Part shown: one piece after another, positions 9,619 through 50,984 of the stretch
Numbering within the stretch: the first letter of the stretch is position 1
Layout: every line of letters begins with the position of its first letter
Assembly (NCBI GenBank): GCA_025210485.1
Contig: JAOARN010000121.1
Coordinates: forward strand, 1-64,000
From: Marinifilaceae bacterium
GTDB taxonomy: Bacteria > Bacteroidota > Bacteroidia > Bacteroidales > Marinifilaceae
DNA length: 64,000 nucleotides
Direction of reading: 5' to 3'
Notes under the pieces: model-generated
What the model was told of the DNA's origin: nothing
What the model saw: the letters and a program-made list of their open reading frames with translations, nothing else
The model's database searches: none
Program-made: the position numbers and the translations under genes

Positions 9619-10377
9619 TTAAGCTTTACGCCTGAAAACAAGAAATAAAAATGCCAGTAAAGAAATAAATATTATTATACTTCCTGTTACCTTTGTTATA
9701 CTAAGGACATAGGTTTTACCCTGAGGATCATAAGAATAACAAAATTCGAGAAGCCTATTAACTGTAGGACCTATCTTACCCTCAGCTGCATCAATCAGAC
9801 TCATCTTAAACTCAAATGGTAGAAAATACACTCCATTTAGATATCTGGTAATTTTAGCCTCTTTACTCGTAATCATAATACATCCAGGATGCAAATAATC
9901 ATTCCCCATCTTTTTATATCTAAAGCCTAAGGCTTGAGTGATTGCTCGACAGTTTATACTATCCGATGCAAAAAACTTCCATCCATCTGTGTTTGTTTGA
10001 TTTGTTATTAAATTACGGTAATTTATAGATTTACGTTTTGCTAAATCGGCTCCTTCTCTATAATCGAAACTTATTGTTAAAACTTGATAATCTTCGGTAA
10101 GTTTTAAATCAGATTTATTAACAACTTCAACTACTCCATCTAATAATGGACTGCAAATCCCTGGACATCTATAATACACCATCATAATAACGGTAGGCTT
10201 ATCTATCTGATCTACCAATCTCACCGTATCGCCTTTTATATTAATTACCATCAATGAATCCGACAAATGATTTCCTAATTTTTCAATCAAACCTACCTCT
10301 AAATCATTTTGAGCCTTTAACCCAAATATCAGAAACAGACAAATAAAAGCTGTACATAATTTTTGAAATAATCTCAT
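9619..10377 (-). CDS. SCO1/SenC copper chaperone
   Basis: 252 residues with an N-terminal hydrophobic signal or anchor (about 7-22), a thioredoxin-fold domain and a C-terminal transmembrane helix. The copper-binding C-P-G-I-C is at 71-75 (YYRCPGICSPLL), and the conserved histidine is in DYLHPGC at about 161. SCO proteins deliver copper to the CuA site of subunit II, which fits its place as first gene of the oxidase operon. Upstream, 370 bp separate it from the divergent mscS-like gene. Confidence 0.92.
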   Translation of the reverse strand: MRLFQKLCTAFICLFLIFGLKAQNDLEVGLIEKLGNHLSDSLMVINIKGDTVRLVDQIDKPTVIMMVYYRCPGICSPLLDGVVEVVNKSDLKLTEDYQVLTISFDYREGADLAKRKSINYRNLITNQTNTDGWKFFASDSINCRAITQALGFRYKKMGNDYLHPGCIMITSKEAKITRYLNGVYFLPFEFKMSLIDAAEGKIGPTVNRLLEFCYSYDPQGKTYVLSITKVTGSIIIFISLLAFLFLVFRRKA

Positions 10378-45015: not shown

Positions 45016-46326
45016 TTACATATCATCTAAAGACAAGCCTATGTATTCTATTTCATATTCTCTAAATTTATTTACAATTGAAGAGGATTTATTCTTTAAA
45101 ATTTCCAAATTTATTCGATCTTTATTTCGTTTTACTTCTATAAAGGCTATTTTATTGTCAGTTTCATTGAGCGCTACAATATCTATTTCATTCTTATTTC
45201 CTCTTTCCCAATATGTTCCAATAGTACCATAATATCTATCTTGAATTATCTTATTAAAAAAATATTTTTCTAATATTATTCCTGAATATGTATTATAATC
45301 TCGTTCAACAATATTTTTCAGATATTTAATATTGCCTATTTCAACGGCACCTCTATACTTATAAACAAATCTAAACCAAAAATTCAAGAAATTATCTTTT
45401 ATTCTATACTTTACTGATCTACTATTTGGCTTAGAAAAGATTGGCTTTACTTTTTCTATTAAACTATAATCCTTTTCAAGTCTATCTAAAAAACCACCAA
45501 TATTCTTTTCAAGTATGGACTCCATTTCTACCCTTGATGTTTTAGAAGATGCAATTAATGAAAGAATTGAAAAATAGTTACCATACTCCTTTCCAAATTC
45601 CTCTATTAAGACATTTTTACCTTCATCTAGGAATAAGGAATTTTCTGCAAATACATAATCTAAAATACTCTCTTTTGTAAAACACTCTTCTTCCACTAAA
45701 AGTTCAACATATTTTGCTACACCTCCTGTAACTAAATAAAAAGCAAGAAGATCTTCATTTGTATATTCAGGGTAATAATCATTTAAAATTTCCTTAAGTG
45801 TATCTATTGTAAATGCCTGTAGATGAATCCTTGCTGTAGCTCTACCAAAAAGAGGTTCTTTAGAATTTTCGAACAATTCAATTAGTAAAGAATATACAGA
45901 GCCACAAATCAATAAATTAATAGATGATTTATTCTTTTTTGAGTCCCAAATATTCTGCATTTCGCTATACACAGCAGGGTTAATAAAATTGAATTCTTGA
46001 AATTCATCTATAATAAGAGTAAAATGTTCCTTAGTAGATAAATCCATCAAAAAACCAAAAACCTCTTTGAAACTACTTAGTTTTCCATAAACCTCAACTT
46101 TAAGCTTATCTTTTATTTCATTCACAAATTCCTCACATAAAAGAGGTTCACTCTTCTTTGAAATAAAAAAATACAGAGACCTTGAGTTTTGAACTGATTT
46201 ATTAAGTAAGCTTGTTTTTCCAATACGCCTCCTACCTAACATAAATGTCATTTGTGCGGATTTCTTTGATTTATTCTCGTATTTTTTTAGTAATGCAAGC
46301 TCTTTTTCTCGATTATAAAACTTCAT
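45016..46326 (-). CDS. AAA ATPase with C-terminal PD-(D/E)xK-like domain (COG1672/DUF234 type)
   Basis: 436 residues. Walker A GRRRIGKTSLL (31-41), Walker B FTLIIDEFQEF (103-113), then LLICGSVYSLL and GRATARIHLQAF as in the archaeal-type ATPase_2 family. The C-terminus has a nuclease-like motif: YWERGNKNEIDIVAL ... IAFIEVKRN (D then E-x-K), matching DUF234. Members are scattered across Archaea, Thermotogae and Bacteroidetes with unknown function. It is a lone gene whose start codon is preceded, 18-23 nt upstream, by the first 15-bp palindrome array. The flanking mobile remnant suggests an accessory island. Confidence 0.85.
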   Translation of the reverse strand: MKFYNREKELALLKKYENKSKKSAQMTFMLGRRRIGKTSLLNKSVQNSRSLYFFISKKSEPLLCEEFVNEIKDKLKVEVYGKLSSFKEVFGFLMDLSTKEHFTLIIDEFQEFNFINPAVYSEMQNIWDSKKNKSSINLLICGSVYSLLIELFENSKEPLFGRATARIHLQAFTIDTLKEILNDYYPEYTNEDLLAFYLVTGGVAKYVELLVEEECFTKESILDYVFAENSLFLDEGKNVLIEEFGKEYGNYFSILSLIASSKTSRVEMESILEKNIGGFLDRLEKDYSLIEKVKPIFSKPNSRSVKYRIKDNFLNFWFRFVYKYRGAVEIGNIKYLKNIVERDYNTYSGIILEKYFFNKIIQDRYYGTIGTYWERGNKNEIDIVALNETDNKIAFIEVKRNKDRINLEILKNKSSSIVNKFREYEIEYIGLSLDDM

Positions 46327-46343
46327 GTTTCTAATATTTAAAA

Positions 46344-46462
46344 GTATTTTATAGTAATGCAGGTTACTGTAATTTGGGTTACTATAATGACAAAGGTACT
46401 ATATTTTTTTGTTATTTAATAACGCAACCTTTGTTACGATAACTCCTGTTACTATAAAATAC
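46344..46462. repeat. Palindrome arrays A and B, forming a 119-bp inverted element
   Basis: Outer arms are the perfect 14-bp inverted pair GTATTTTATAGTAA (46344-46357) and TTACTATAAAATAC (46449-46462). Inside, array A has cores TTATAGTAA, TTACTGTAA, TTACTATAA at 46349, 46364, 46379, and array B has TTACGATAA and TTACTATAA at 46434 and 46449: all 15 bp apart within an array. The centre also has CAAAGG/CCTTTG. The element is just upstream of the ATPase ATG, so it could be its operator, or a MITE-like unit. Confidence 0.75.
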
Positions 46463-46640
46463 AACTTGTAATCCTTACTATATGGCTATTATAACTTGAA
46501 TTTGATTTCCAAATATTTATTTGAAAGTTAATAATTAAAGAATATCTACAGAGTAATATATCAGATGTTTTTATAAGCTCAAGTAATCCACTAGCTGACA
46601 ATAAATTATTTACTTCTATAATATTCAATCGTAAATAAAC

Positions 46641-46723
46641 TTGTAATAACTGACATGTAGTAATTCTCGTTACAGTAACGGGTATTACCATAACAAGAGT
46701 TGCTGTAATTTATATTGTAAATA
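46641..46723 (+). repeat. Palindrome array C
   Basis: Cores at 46655 (ATGTAGTAA), 46670 (TTACAGTAA), 46685 (TTACCATAA), 46700 (TTGCTGTAA) and 46715 (TTGTAAATA), with a degenerate one at 46641. The period is exactly 15 bp, each core followed by a different 6-nt spacer. More degenerate than D and E. Confidence 0.75.
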
Positions 46724-46869
46724 TACAAAGCCTGACAACTTGAAAAATTTAGCTCACTACAATTGATTAAAAAAAACAGAACCTTAGAAAAAAACCCATA
46801 ACACACATAAATATCTGCATAATAACTACATAGCAAATCTAACAATAATTCCACTTATATTAAATCAAA

Positions 46870-46930
46870 TTATAGTAACTATCATTACCGTAACACAGAT
46901 TACTGTAACTTACATTACAATAAAAAATAC
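46870..46930 (+). repeat. Palindrome array D
   Basis: Four cores exactly 15 bp apart: TTATAGTAA (46870), TTACCGTAA (46885), TTACTGTAA (46900), TTACAATAA (46915), ending in AAAATAC. Spacers between cores differ. The same order of cores recurs in array E, 1.3 kb away on the other side of the ISAs1 remnant. Confidence 0.8.
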
Positions 46931-47074
46931 CAACTAGTTCTATACATTTCATGAGCATGGGCTTTCTCATGAGAGCGTAGATCCATATTTAAAACACGTA
47001 AATATTGTTATTTATATTAGTTTTCCGTGTTTCTAAAATTATATTTAATATTATAACGGTGATATAAAACAAGA
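46931..47074. other. Short non-coding stretch before the ISAs1 remnant
   Basis: Contains a 7-bp hairpin TCATGAG ... CTCATGA (46949-46972). No inverted repeat matching the far end of the transposase remnant was found. Confidence 0.35.
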
Positions 47075-48176
47075 ATGAATACAATAAATAAGTATTTTTC
47101 AGAACTAGAGGATTTCAGACGAGCGAAGAGTGTAAAATAAATTTTTGATTAAAATAATATCTCCAACTATTACAGCAAGCATTTGTGGATTTTCAAACCT
47201 GAGGTGATATTTCTAATTTTGGAAACAAAAAAATCAAATGGTTGCGAAAAATTTTCCCATATGAGAATGGCATACCTTCAAAAGATACAACTAGTCGTTT
47301 TTATAATCATATCAGTTTAGAAAAACTAACTAAATATTTTGTGAATTGGGTAAAGTATATATCTAAAATAGCTAAGCGTGAGATTATAAGTATCGATGAA
47401 AGGATTATTAGGGGCGGGGAAAACACAGGGAATAAATCATTGATTCATATTGTTTCAGCATAGGCAAATACAGCCAGAATTTCATTTGATCGATTAAAGT
47501 AGGTGTAGAATAAAACGAAATAACAGCAATTACAATGCTTTTAGATAAACTTGAATTATATAAATGTTTTGAACTATCGATGCAATGGGCTGTCAAACAG
47601 AAATTGCAAAAGATATTGATTTTCTGGACGACACATACATGTTAATAGCAAAGGAAAATCAGAAAGAGTTGTATGAAAATATAAAAGATAGATTTCTCGA
47701 ATGCGATGATAAAATCGAAGATTTTGATTTTGGACATAGTAGAATTGAAACCAGAAAAGCTTCTGTTATTACTGATTTTTAGCACATAGAAAGACCGAAG
47801 CGTTGGCAGAATTTAACTTGTGTTATAAATGTCGAATCAGAAAGATATATAAAGAAAGACGGAACTATTCAAAAATCAGAAAGATACTACATAGCAAATG
47901 GGAACCTGAATCCAAATAAAGCTCGAGAATTATCACTGAAACATTAGGGTGTTGAAAATAATCTGCATTGGCAAATAGATGTCTCTGTTAATCAAGATAA
48001 GCAAAGGAAGATAGAGGGTAATTCTTCTGAGAATATTTCTTTAATAAATAAAAATCACTCTTAGCATATTGAAGAAGGATAAATCTTTTAAGGCCAGTAT
48101 TAGGTCAAAGAGACTTAATGCTATTTTGAATATGGTGTATATTGAAAAACTTTTAAAAACTCATACAGATATCTAA
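47075..48176 (+). pseudogene. Decayed ISAs1-family transposase
   Basis: Readable pieces over three frames match the ISAs1 (H-repeat-associated) family in order: FSELEDFRRAKSVK then stop; PTITASICGFSNLR; GDISNFGNKKIKWLRK with FPYENGIPSKDTTSR; ISIDERIIRGG; HIVSA then stop; MGCQTEIAKDI with AKENQKELYENIKDR; FGHSRIETRKASVITDF then stop; GVENNLHWQIDVSVNQD; and the tail ending KLLKTHTDI with TAA at 48174. At least five stops or frameshifts, so inactive. Array E begins right after the final stop. Confidence 0.9.
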
Positions 48177-48236
48177 TTATAGTAACTCATATTACCGTAA
48201 CCCTAGTTACTGTAAACAACATTGCGATAAAACACA
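48177..48236 (+). repeat. Palindrome array E
   Basis: Cores TTATAGTAA (48177), TTACCGTAA (48192), TTACTGTAA (48207), TTGCGATAA (48222), exactly 15 bp apart and ending in AAACAC. Same core order and direction as array D, different spacers. Confidence 0.8.
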
Positions 48237-48312
48237 AATTAATTTTTAAATATACTATATGAGATAATTTTAATTCAGATAAAGACAACTTAATTGCACA
48301 AAATACATTACA

Positions 48313-48345
48313 AAAAAAGTGTTAACCCTAAAAGGCTAACACTTT
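48313..48345 (-). terminator. Terminator after valS
   Basis: AAAGTGTTA ... TAACACTTT stem; on the minus strand followed by TTTTTTG. It is 24 nt past the valS stop. Confidence 0.75.
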
Positions 48346-48368
48346 ACTCTATTATTTTTAGCTTAACA

Positions 48369-50984
48369 TTATTTTAAACTAGCTAATCTTTCCTCCAAAA
48401 CTTTAATTTTAGCTTCAGCATCTTGTTGTTTTTTCTTCTCAACAGCAACAACTTTTTCTGGTGCATTATTAACAAATCTCTCATTTGAAAGCTTCTTATT
48501 AACACCAATCAAAAATCCTTTAGTATATTTTAATTCTTCTTCAATTTTTGAAATCTCTTCTTCGATATCAACCATGTCTCCTAGAGGAACAAAATATTCT
48601 ACTGAATCAACAATAAAAGAAATTGCACCTTTTTCGCTCTCGTCAACATGTTTGATTTCAGACAAATTAGCCATCTTACTAATCAAAGCATTATATGTTG
48701 AATTATGACTAGTATTTTTATAGTCAAGAACTAAAGATTCTTTGAAAGCAATATTATTTTTCTTTCTGATATTTCTTACATTGGTTATTATTTCTTGTAC
48801 CTTTTCAAACTCAGAAATTAAATTTTGATCATATTTTTTGAATTCAGGTAGAACAGACACCATAATACTTTCTTCATCTTTACGGTCTGAAAGTAATTGC
48901 CAAATCTCCTCAGTAACAAATGGTGTATATGGATGAATTAACTGCATTAATCTTTCTAAAATGGAGATTGTTGATTCATAAGTTAATTTATCAATAGGTT
49001 GTCCATAAGCTGGCTTAACTGATTCCAAATACCATGAAGAAAAATCATCTCTAATCAATGTATAGATAGTCATCAATGCTTCACTAATTCTATATTGAGC
49101 GAATTGTTGTTCTAGTACTTCATATGTTTTTGATAGTTTATCTTCAAACCATTTTACAGCAATTTGTGCATATTCTGGTTGTTCTATCTGCTCAACATTC
49201 CATGATTTAACCAATCGGAATGAATTCCATATTTTAGTGATAAAGTTTCTTCCTTGTTCTGGCAAACTTTCATCAAATAATAAATCTCCACCTGCAGGAG
49301 AACATAGTAACATTCCTACACGTACCCCATCAGCACCATACTTTGCTATCAAATCAAGAGGATCTGGTGAATTACCTAATGATTTAGACATTTTTCTACG
49401 TTGACTATCACGAACTATTCCTGTAAGATATACATTATTAAATGGTTTTTCACCTTTATATTCATAACCAGCAATAATCATTCTAGCTATCCAGAAAAAT
49501 AAAATATCAGGACCACTAACTAAATCATTTGTTGGATAATAATAATTTATATCTTTATTATCTGGATTTCTAATTCCATCAAATACAGATATAGGCCATA
49601 ACCAAGAAGAAAACCAAGTATCTAATACATCTTCATCTTGTTTTAATTCATCTGCAGTATAATCTTTTCCTGTTTTCTCTTTAGCCTTAAGTATTGCTTC
49701 GTCTGAATTTTTAGCTACAATGTGTCCTCCTTCAGGAAGGTAATAAACAGGTATTCTTTGTCCCCACCATAATTGTCTAGAGATACACCAATCTTTCACA
49801 TTCTCCATCCAGTGTTTATAGGTATTTTTAAACTTAGCTGGATGTAATTGGATATCATCATTCATTACATGCTCAAGAGCAGGCTTAGCAAGCTCGGTCA
49901 TTTTTAAGAACCACTGCATACTTAATTTAGGCTCAATTGCTGCATCTGTTCTTTCTGAATAACCTACTTTATTTACGTAGTCTTCTATTTTTTCAAGATT
50001 GCCTGCTTTTTCCAATTCTGGAATAATAGCATCTCTAACCTCAAATCTATCCATTCCAACAAACATCTGAGCTGCTTCACTCAATGTTCCATTATCATTA
50101 AATATATCTATTGATTCGAGATTATGTCTATGCCCTATTTCGTAATCATTAATATCGTGAGCAGGAGTTATTTTCAAAGCACCTGTACCGAATTCCATAT
50201 CCACATATTCATCTTGAATAATTGGAACAGTTCTATTAACAAGAGGTACAATAACTTTTTTACCTTTTAAGTGTTGAAATCGCTCATCTTTTGGATTTAC
50301 ACATACCGCAGTATCTCCAAGTATAGTTTCTGGTCGAGTAGTTGCAATAATTAAATAATTATCCTCACCTTCGATTTGGTATCTCAAATAATATAATTTG
50401 GACTGAACTTCTTTATGAATAACTTCTTCGTCAGAAACAGCAGTTTGAGCAGCTGGATCCCAATTAACCATTCTAACACCTCTGTAAATAAGTCCTTTTT
50501 CATACAAATCAATAAAAGTATCAATCACAGATTCGTATAGAGATTCATCCATAGTAAAACTAGTTCTATCCCAATCACAAGAAGCACCTAATCTTTTTAA
50601 TTGTTCTAGTATTATACCACCATGCTTTTCTTTCCATTCCCAAGCATGTTTCATAAAATCATCTCTAGTTAAATCAGATTTGCTTATCCCCTCTTGTTTT
50701 AGTTTGTTCACAACCTTAGCTTCTGTAGCAATAGAAGCATGATCAGTACCAGGAACCCAACAAGCATTTTTACCCTTAATACGGGCTCTGCGGACCAATA
50801 CATCCTGAATCGTATTATTTAGCATATGTCCCATATGCAAGACACCAGTGACATTTGGTGGTGGAATTACTATTGTATAAGGCTCACGACTATCAGGCTC
50901 TGAGTGGAAAAATCTCTTTTCCATCCAATGCTTATACCATTTTTCTTCCGAATCAGCAGGATTGTACTTAGTTGGAATTTCCAT
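48369..50984 (-). CDS. valS: Valyl-tRNA synthetase
   Basis: 871 residues, class I. HIGH-like motif is HMGHMLNN (about 50-57), KMSKS loop [12 protein letters not shown] (about 531-542). The editing domain has [16 protein letters not shown] and [14 protein letters not shown]. The C-terminus is a coiled coil ([21 protein letters not shown]...), usual for ValRS. Stand-alone gene with candidate promoter ~145 nt upstream. Confidence 0.97.

Follow-up and report, generated by a model that had tools for sequence, protein, structure and literature searches.

Palindrome arrays with a 15-bp period as putative operators of an adjoining PDC-S27-like ATPase gene

The DNA analysed here, referred to as the window, is a stretch of 64,000 nucleotides in which five arrays of short palindromes lie upstream of a gene for a PDC-S27-like ATPase. 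The arrays are quite probably operators of this adjoining gene, whose product would bind its own promoter through a winged helix and repress itself. The individual 9-bp palindromes are most likely DNA docking sites with which the ATPase would control its own gene, as judged from sequence comparison. The ATPase is suggested as the binder by the position of the arrays, their exclusivity to its gene, their spread across phyla, and the change of their core words with the protein clade. Binding is proposed to repress the gene, since the array adjoins or overlaps the promoter.

The arrays are found in the intergenic stretch between the ATPase_2-DUF234 gene and a valS-like gene that begins at 48369 on the minus strand (Table 1). 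They are composed of 18 TTAC-N-GTAA-like palindromic units, spaced exactly 15 bp from start to start within every array, in agreement with the earlier note on this DNA, which had described about 18 copies at that period. In-phase unit pairs with at most one mismatch number 10 in 46327-48368, and the maximum reached in 2000 mononucleotide shuffles of the same interval is 1. The remainder of the window has 0 such pairs, which bears out the claim that no arrays occur elsewhere in the 64 kb; the isolated exact units at 10013, 32473, and 38917 are not in arrays. Pair spacings in the window are concentrated at 15 bp (14 pairs) and 30 bp (8 pairs), with 0-2 pairs at each other spacing from 9 to 29. 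The earlier listing of arrays needs a correction at array 2, which has three units (46419-46457) instead of two. Array 4 has further in-phase units, degenerate in sequence, at 46840 and 46855. Array 1 is the putative conserved promoter-proximal operator, as orthologues carry the same design at the same position.

Table 1. Features of the ATPase locus and its upstream region, in window coordinates
Feature	Position	Strand	Details
ATPase_2-DUF234 protein, PDC-S27-like	45016..46326	-	436 aa
Array 1	46349..46387	-	3 units: 46349, 46364, 46379; 22 bp from ATPase start codon
-7 promoter box, Bacteroidota-type	46391..46398	-	TACCTTTG (TAnnTTTG); ends 3 bp before array 1
Array 2	46419..46457	-	3 units: 46419, 46434, 46449; upstream of -7 box
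Array 3	46655..46708	.	4 units: 46655, 46670, 46685, 46700
Array 4	46870..46923	.	4 units: 46870, 46885, 46900, 46915
Broken transposase remnant	47150..48130	+	DDE_Tnp_1_assoc, 4.4e-8; between arrays 4 and 5
Array 5	48177..48230	.	4 units: 48177, 48192, 48207, 48222; beyond IS remnant

Homologues of the ATPase were drawn from two sources, 60 genomes of the window's own family and 80 loci in a public collection of genomes, and cover Bacteroidota, Campylobacterota, and a few records labelled Deltaproteobacteria, Desulfobacteraceae, and Lentisphaerae. Orthologues at 54-76% identity from several phyla have the same array design 0-58 bp before the ATG, with three units as a rule and rarely four. 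Among homologues of at least 53% identity with enough upstream sequence, the array ends 0-58 bp before the ATG in 84 of 85, and the remaining one (L056) has a two-unit array at -180. No array was seen at L131, a close homologue outside this set of 85. A blind scan of periods from 10 to 21 returned 15 as the best period in 97/105 upstream regions, 12/105 downstream regions, and 0/105 coding regions.

In the direction of the ATG, 80 three-unit arrays give the consensus TTAT-N-G(T/C)AA-Y-N4-R-TTAC-N-GTAA-Y-N4-R-TT(A/G)C-N-ATAA. The four inner half-sites are GTAA/TTAC, with TTAT and ATAA as the outermost pair, so the whole array forms one dyad. The polarity that the arrays were thought to share is actually this dyad symmetry, in which TTAT opens an array and ATAA closes it. 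Mirroring between unit 1 and unit 3 in the GTAA class reaches 3.02 of 4 positions, against 2.45 expected from other loci. The spacers, described earlier as not conserved, are indeed free in their interior but constrained at their edges, where the first base in relatives is Y (~96-98%) and the last is R (~93-94%). A natural reading of the three-unit array would be two 14-bp sites, GTAA-N6-TTAC, with centres 15 bp apart.

A genome-wide search for TTAC-N-GTAA repeated at 15 bp, the check proposed in the earlier note, finds arrays at this locus alone: the two-unit pattern has no occurrence elsewhere in the 4.52-Mb genome, and when two mismatches are allowed, all matches with 0 or 1 mismatch still fall here. 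The exact three-unit pattern is present in 5 of 60 genomes of the window's family, including the window genome. In the other four the strict array always stands directly before the ATPase gene; the sole exception to this placement is the window's own set of extra arrays. Neither the exact three-unit array nor a reversed control pattern has any match in 395 other Bacteroidota genomes spread over the phylum, and the flanks of 106 homologues (734 kb) contain just 2 additional arrays. The proposed association with COG1672/DUF234 ATPases is therefore upheld by the 84 of 85 close homologues and the 0 of 395 other genomes, and a random scatter with no tie to any gene is contradicted, since the arrays track the ATPase gene from genome to genome. 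The gene itself is patchy, occurring in 7/198 Bacteroidota genomes, the window's own among them. It has no constant neighbour across 80 loci. No other gene family is common to more than 11 of the 80, apart from an ORF cluster apparently antisense to the ATPase, which leaves the ATPase as the only constant partner. The nearest candidate for a fixed partner gene, an AAA_14/DUF4143-like ATPase (named from sequence), is present at 11/80 loci and was rejected. With their repeats and variable spacers the arrays have a likeness to CRISPR arrays, but the units are 9 bp and the spacers 6 bp, where repeats of ~20-50 bp and unique spacers of similar length would be expected, and they stand upstream of one gene family only. 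The earlier judgement that this is not a CRISPR is upheld.

The position of the array relative to the promoter points to a DNA operator. In 26 Bacteroidota loci the array follows the end of a Bacteroidota-type TAnnTTTG box by 0-5 bp, mostly by 0 or 2 bp, and in 7 other Bacteroidota loci the -7 box begins 5-15 bp after the array. The site thus abuts or overlaps the gene's own promoter in 26 and 7 loci, as in an autoregulatory operator. Either placement beside the -7 box would block RNA polymerase, and an array that abuts the box on either side suits an operator in DNA, not a stem in RNA. It is extremely improbable that the repeats act as RNA, in the form of hairpins in the mRNA 5' leader. Some arrays do fold (z -7.0 at L107 and -3.2 at L067), but those of the window fold weakly (z -1.6 and -1.3). 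In the 7 loci with the array upstream of the -7 box, L107 included, the array is probably not part of what is transcribed from that promoter, a point against an RNA role. Moreover, spacer complementarity within arrays is hardly above direct similarity (1.65 vs 1.57). The choice left earlier between protein-binding sites on DNA and pairing RNA stems accordingly falls towards DNA sites, which are strongly supported by the tie to the gene and by promoter position, and away from stems, given the 7 loci and the spacer comparison.

The window ATPase matches ATPase_2 (PF01637) with 63.4 bits and DUF234 (PF03008) with 56.4 bits, both above the Pfam cut-offs, and the PDC-S27 models of PADLOC with 5e-48 and 1.5e-36. 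By these matches it is placed in PDC-S27, as an uncharacterised candidate phage-defence protein. Walker A is GRRRIGKT at residues 31-38 and Walker B runs to D107/E108, while the C-terminus is PD-(D/E)XK-like, with E380, D382, E397, and K399. Among 67 sequences, G31, G36, K37, T38, D107, E108, and K399 are invariant, and E380, D382, and E397 are conserved in at least 90%; both family domains are present in the window protein, with the Walker motifs and PD-(D/E)XK-type residues intact. The AlphaFold2 model is confident (pLDDT 91.5, pTM 0.87). It predicts an AAA+-like ATPase core, a winged helix at ~250-309, and a C-terminal domain that holds the PD-(D/E)XK-type residues. The predicted winged helix, which would supply the encoded DNA-binding domain of an autoregulatory system, has helices at 265-272 and 277-286 and strands at 290-293 and 306-309, with 277-286 as the probable recognition helix. 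In the available part of PMC12988326, PDC-S27 is a PADLOC defence candidate in which an ATPase is fused to a PD-(D/E)XK member, the same ATPase and nuclease-like architecture as the window protein. Unlike the window gene, PDC-S27 is described in that part of PMC12988326 without mention of an upstream operator array.

Arrays are not limited to the GTAA/TTAC words. Diverged paralogues retain the 15- or 16-bp design with TTTC-N-GAAA, GTAAA-N-TTTAC, TTTTTGTAA/TTACAAAAA, or words of the ATTATG type; a Bacteroidales group at 26% identity has ATTATGC / ACATTATGT / GCATAAT with period 16. Arrays also precede homologues of Vibrio, Pseudoalteromonas, Rhizobium, and Cetobacterium. Four haloarchaeal plasmid homologues (L159-L162) have related TCATTATC motifs immediately ahead of the start codon; these are short direct repeats instead of palindromes, 15 bp apart in 3 of the 4 copies. 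Overall, 114 of 139 homologues score above every one of eight shuffles made from their upstream region, where ~15 would be expected by chance; those without a clear array include L131, L030, L028, L166, and L168. On the protein tree, the 16 core words of 114 proteins need 17 changes and the split between GTAA and non-GTAA words needs 5, so that core words follow the protein clade. Being specific to this gene and varying with the protein it encodes, the site is as would be expected of an autoregulatory operator. Winged-helix positions 265, 279, 281, 282, and 303 vary with the core word; position 281 is D/E/N with GTAA, T with GAAA, and K with TTTA. When residues of the whole protein are scanned, those that depend on class show no concentration in the winged helix, because the clades differ throughout. 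The link between winged helix and core word is suggestive. A different, host-encoded regulator of the ATPase gene might be the binder instead, but this is very unlikely. The same array is found wherever the ATPase goes, in several phyla, and is otherwise absent; paralogues within one genome use different core words, as in G013, where several are each preceded by their own; and a neighbouring regulator is not conserved.

In the proposed mechanism of self-repression, the array would serve as a row of GTAAY-N4-RTTAC dyads whose half-site centres are 10 bp apart on the same helix face. Successive dyads are 15 bp apart, and TTAT and ATAA would cap the two ends. The half-sites would be read by the winged helix of the ATPase, within a core of the Orc1/Cdc6-STAND type, and several protomers may sit side by side, presumably with cooperativity. 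Occupancy of an array that adjoins or overlaps the promoter would then repress the gene. Paralogues in one genome, having different core words, would each control only themselves. The ATPase-nuclease may be a defence effector whose level is kept low until a trigger. In a bolder version, which we consider unlikely, PDC-S27 genes would be mutually insulated, self-controlled modules: the effector itself, in place of a separate repressor, would read its own array, the DNA-bound form would also be the resting, sensing state, and occupancy lost during phage attack would be the trigger.

Multi-site autorepressor operators with exact spacing are known from the phage 434 and lambda repressors, MetJ met-box arrays, and toxin-antitoxin operators such as AbiE. 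Short dyads are placed in a row over their own promoter in these systems, as here, and the ACAA-N6-TTGT type of half-site spacing in phage 434 operators resembles the GTAA-N6-TTAC arrays. The binder in those cases is a small dedicated repressor, whereas here it is presumed to be an ATPase-nuclease of 436 aa whose winged helix is internal. Among solved structures, the model comes closest to the archaeal ATPases 2qen and 2fna, and next to Orc1/Cdc6, ORC, and STAND proteins. Orc1/Cdc6 initiators and STAND ATPases have an AAA+-like core and then a winged helix, as predicted for the window protein. Orc1/Cdc6 bind repeated origin sites, in contrast to the arrays here, which belong to a single promoter, that of a gene with a patchy distribution. 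Proteins of these folds assemble on DNA or into oligomers, and the array might instead be an assembly or storage platform, where the ATPase-nuclease would sit inactive and ordered on its own array as a DNA-tethered guard, to be triggered by release during phage attack. The conserved nuclease-type residues are consistent with such a guard, and the five arrays of the window exceed the needs of a simple operator. This reading is nevertheless distinctly unlikely, as the tight coupling of array and promoter is more simply explained by transcription control and a single three-unit array is all that most loci have. In the literature, nothing was found that connects palindromic operators with ATPases of the DUF234 or DUF4143 type. 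Autoregulation through the array would give a common candidate defence family that lacks an established mechanism a handle, consisting of a DNA site, a probable reading domain, and a promoter geometry. The core words offer ready specificity groups for studying the control of these ATPases, and the array can be used to recognise their relatives and decayed copies.

It is highly improbable that the arrays are the ends or recognition sites of a single-gene mobile cassette moved by the nuclease of the ATPase. The patchy distribution of the gene, homologues in 154 plasmid records, one copy at a tmRNA 3' end, and the second array downstream of the gene at L051 would suit a cassette. However, the other side of the gene lacks a matching array in 105 of 106 loci, downstream regions have no period signal, and the tmRNA site of G031, compared with sister genomes, is a variable region with no clean array-bounded insertion (one case). 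Mobile-element ends, which would stand at both ends and in multiple copies, were rejected, since there is a single locus in the genome and no partner in those 105 loci. Among viruses, no relative of the ATPase was found in IMG/VR, and phage records gave 7 weak matches. One record listed as a plasmid, from Fusobacterium (L157, NZ_CP084075.1), is 2.1 Mb long, a size that suggests a chromosome.

The four extra upstream arrays of the window are unusual and have almost no parallel in relatives. They may be auxiliary operators or left-over copies. Beside arrays 2-5, tblastn found no remnant of a further ATPase copy (best E ~0.1), and the genome has one copy only. The transposase remnant between arrays 4 and 5 is probably of the ISAs1 family and probably incidental to the arrays. 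In the relative G030, a copy at the 3' end of a tmRNA (L190, G030:C2:317800-319200) has decayed: of the ATPase gene only a short 3' piece is left, and two array units (TTACCGTAACCTGTGTTACGGTAA) survive, adjoined by an XRE/HipB-like gene. With the gene reduced and two units standing, this copy indicates that gene loss can leave solitary arrays; elsewhere, solitary arrays might be auxiliary operators. A solitary second three-unit array lies at L051:4941-4979, ~560 bp downstream of the ATPase gene. AAA_14/DUF4143-like ATPases are found near this ATPase at L117, L042, L046, L056, L111, and other loci, and some have short palindromes of their own before the start codon in another geometry (ATGTGAT...ATCACAT at L117).
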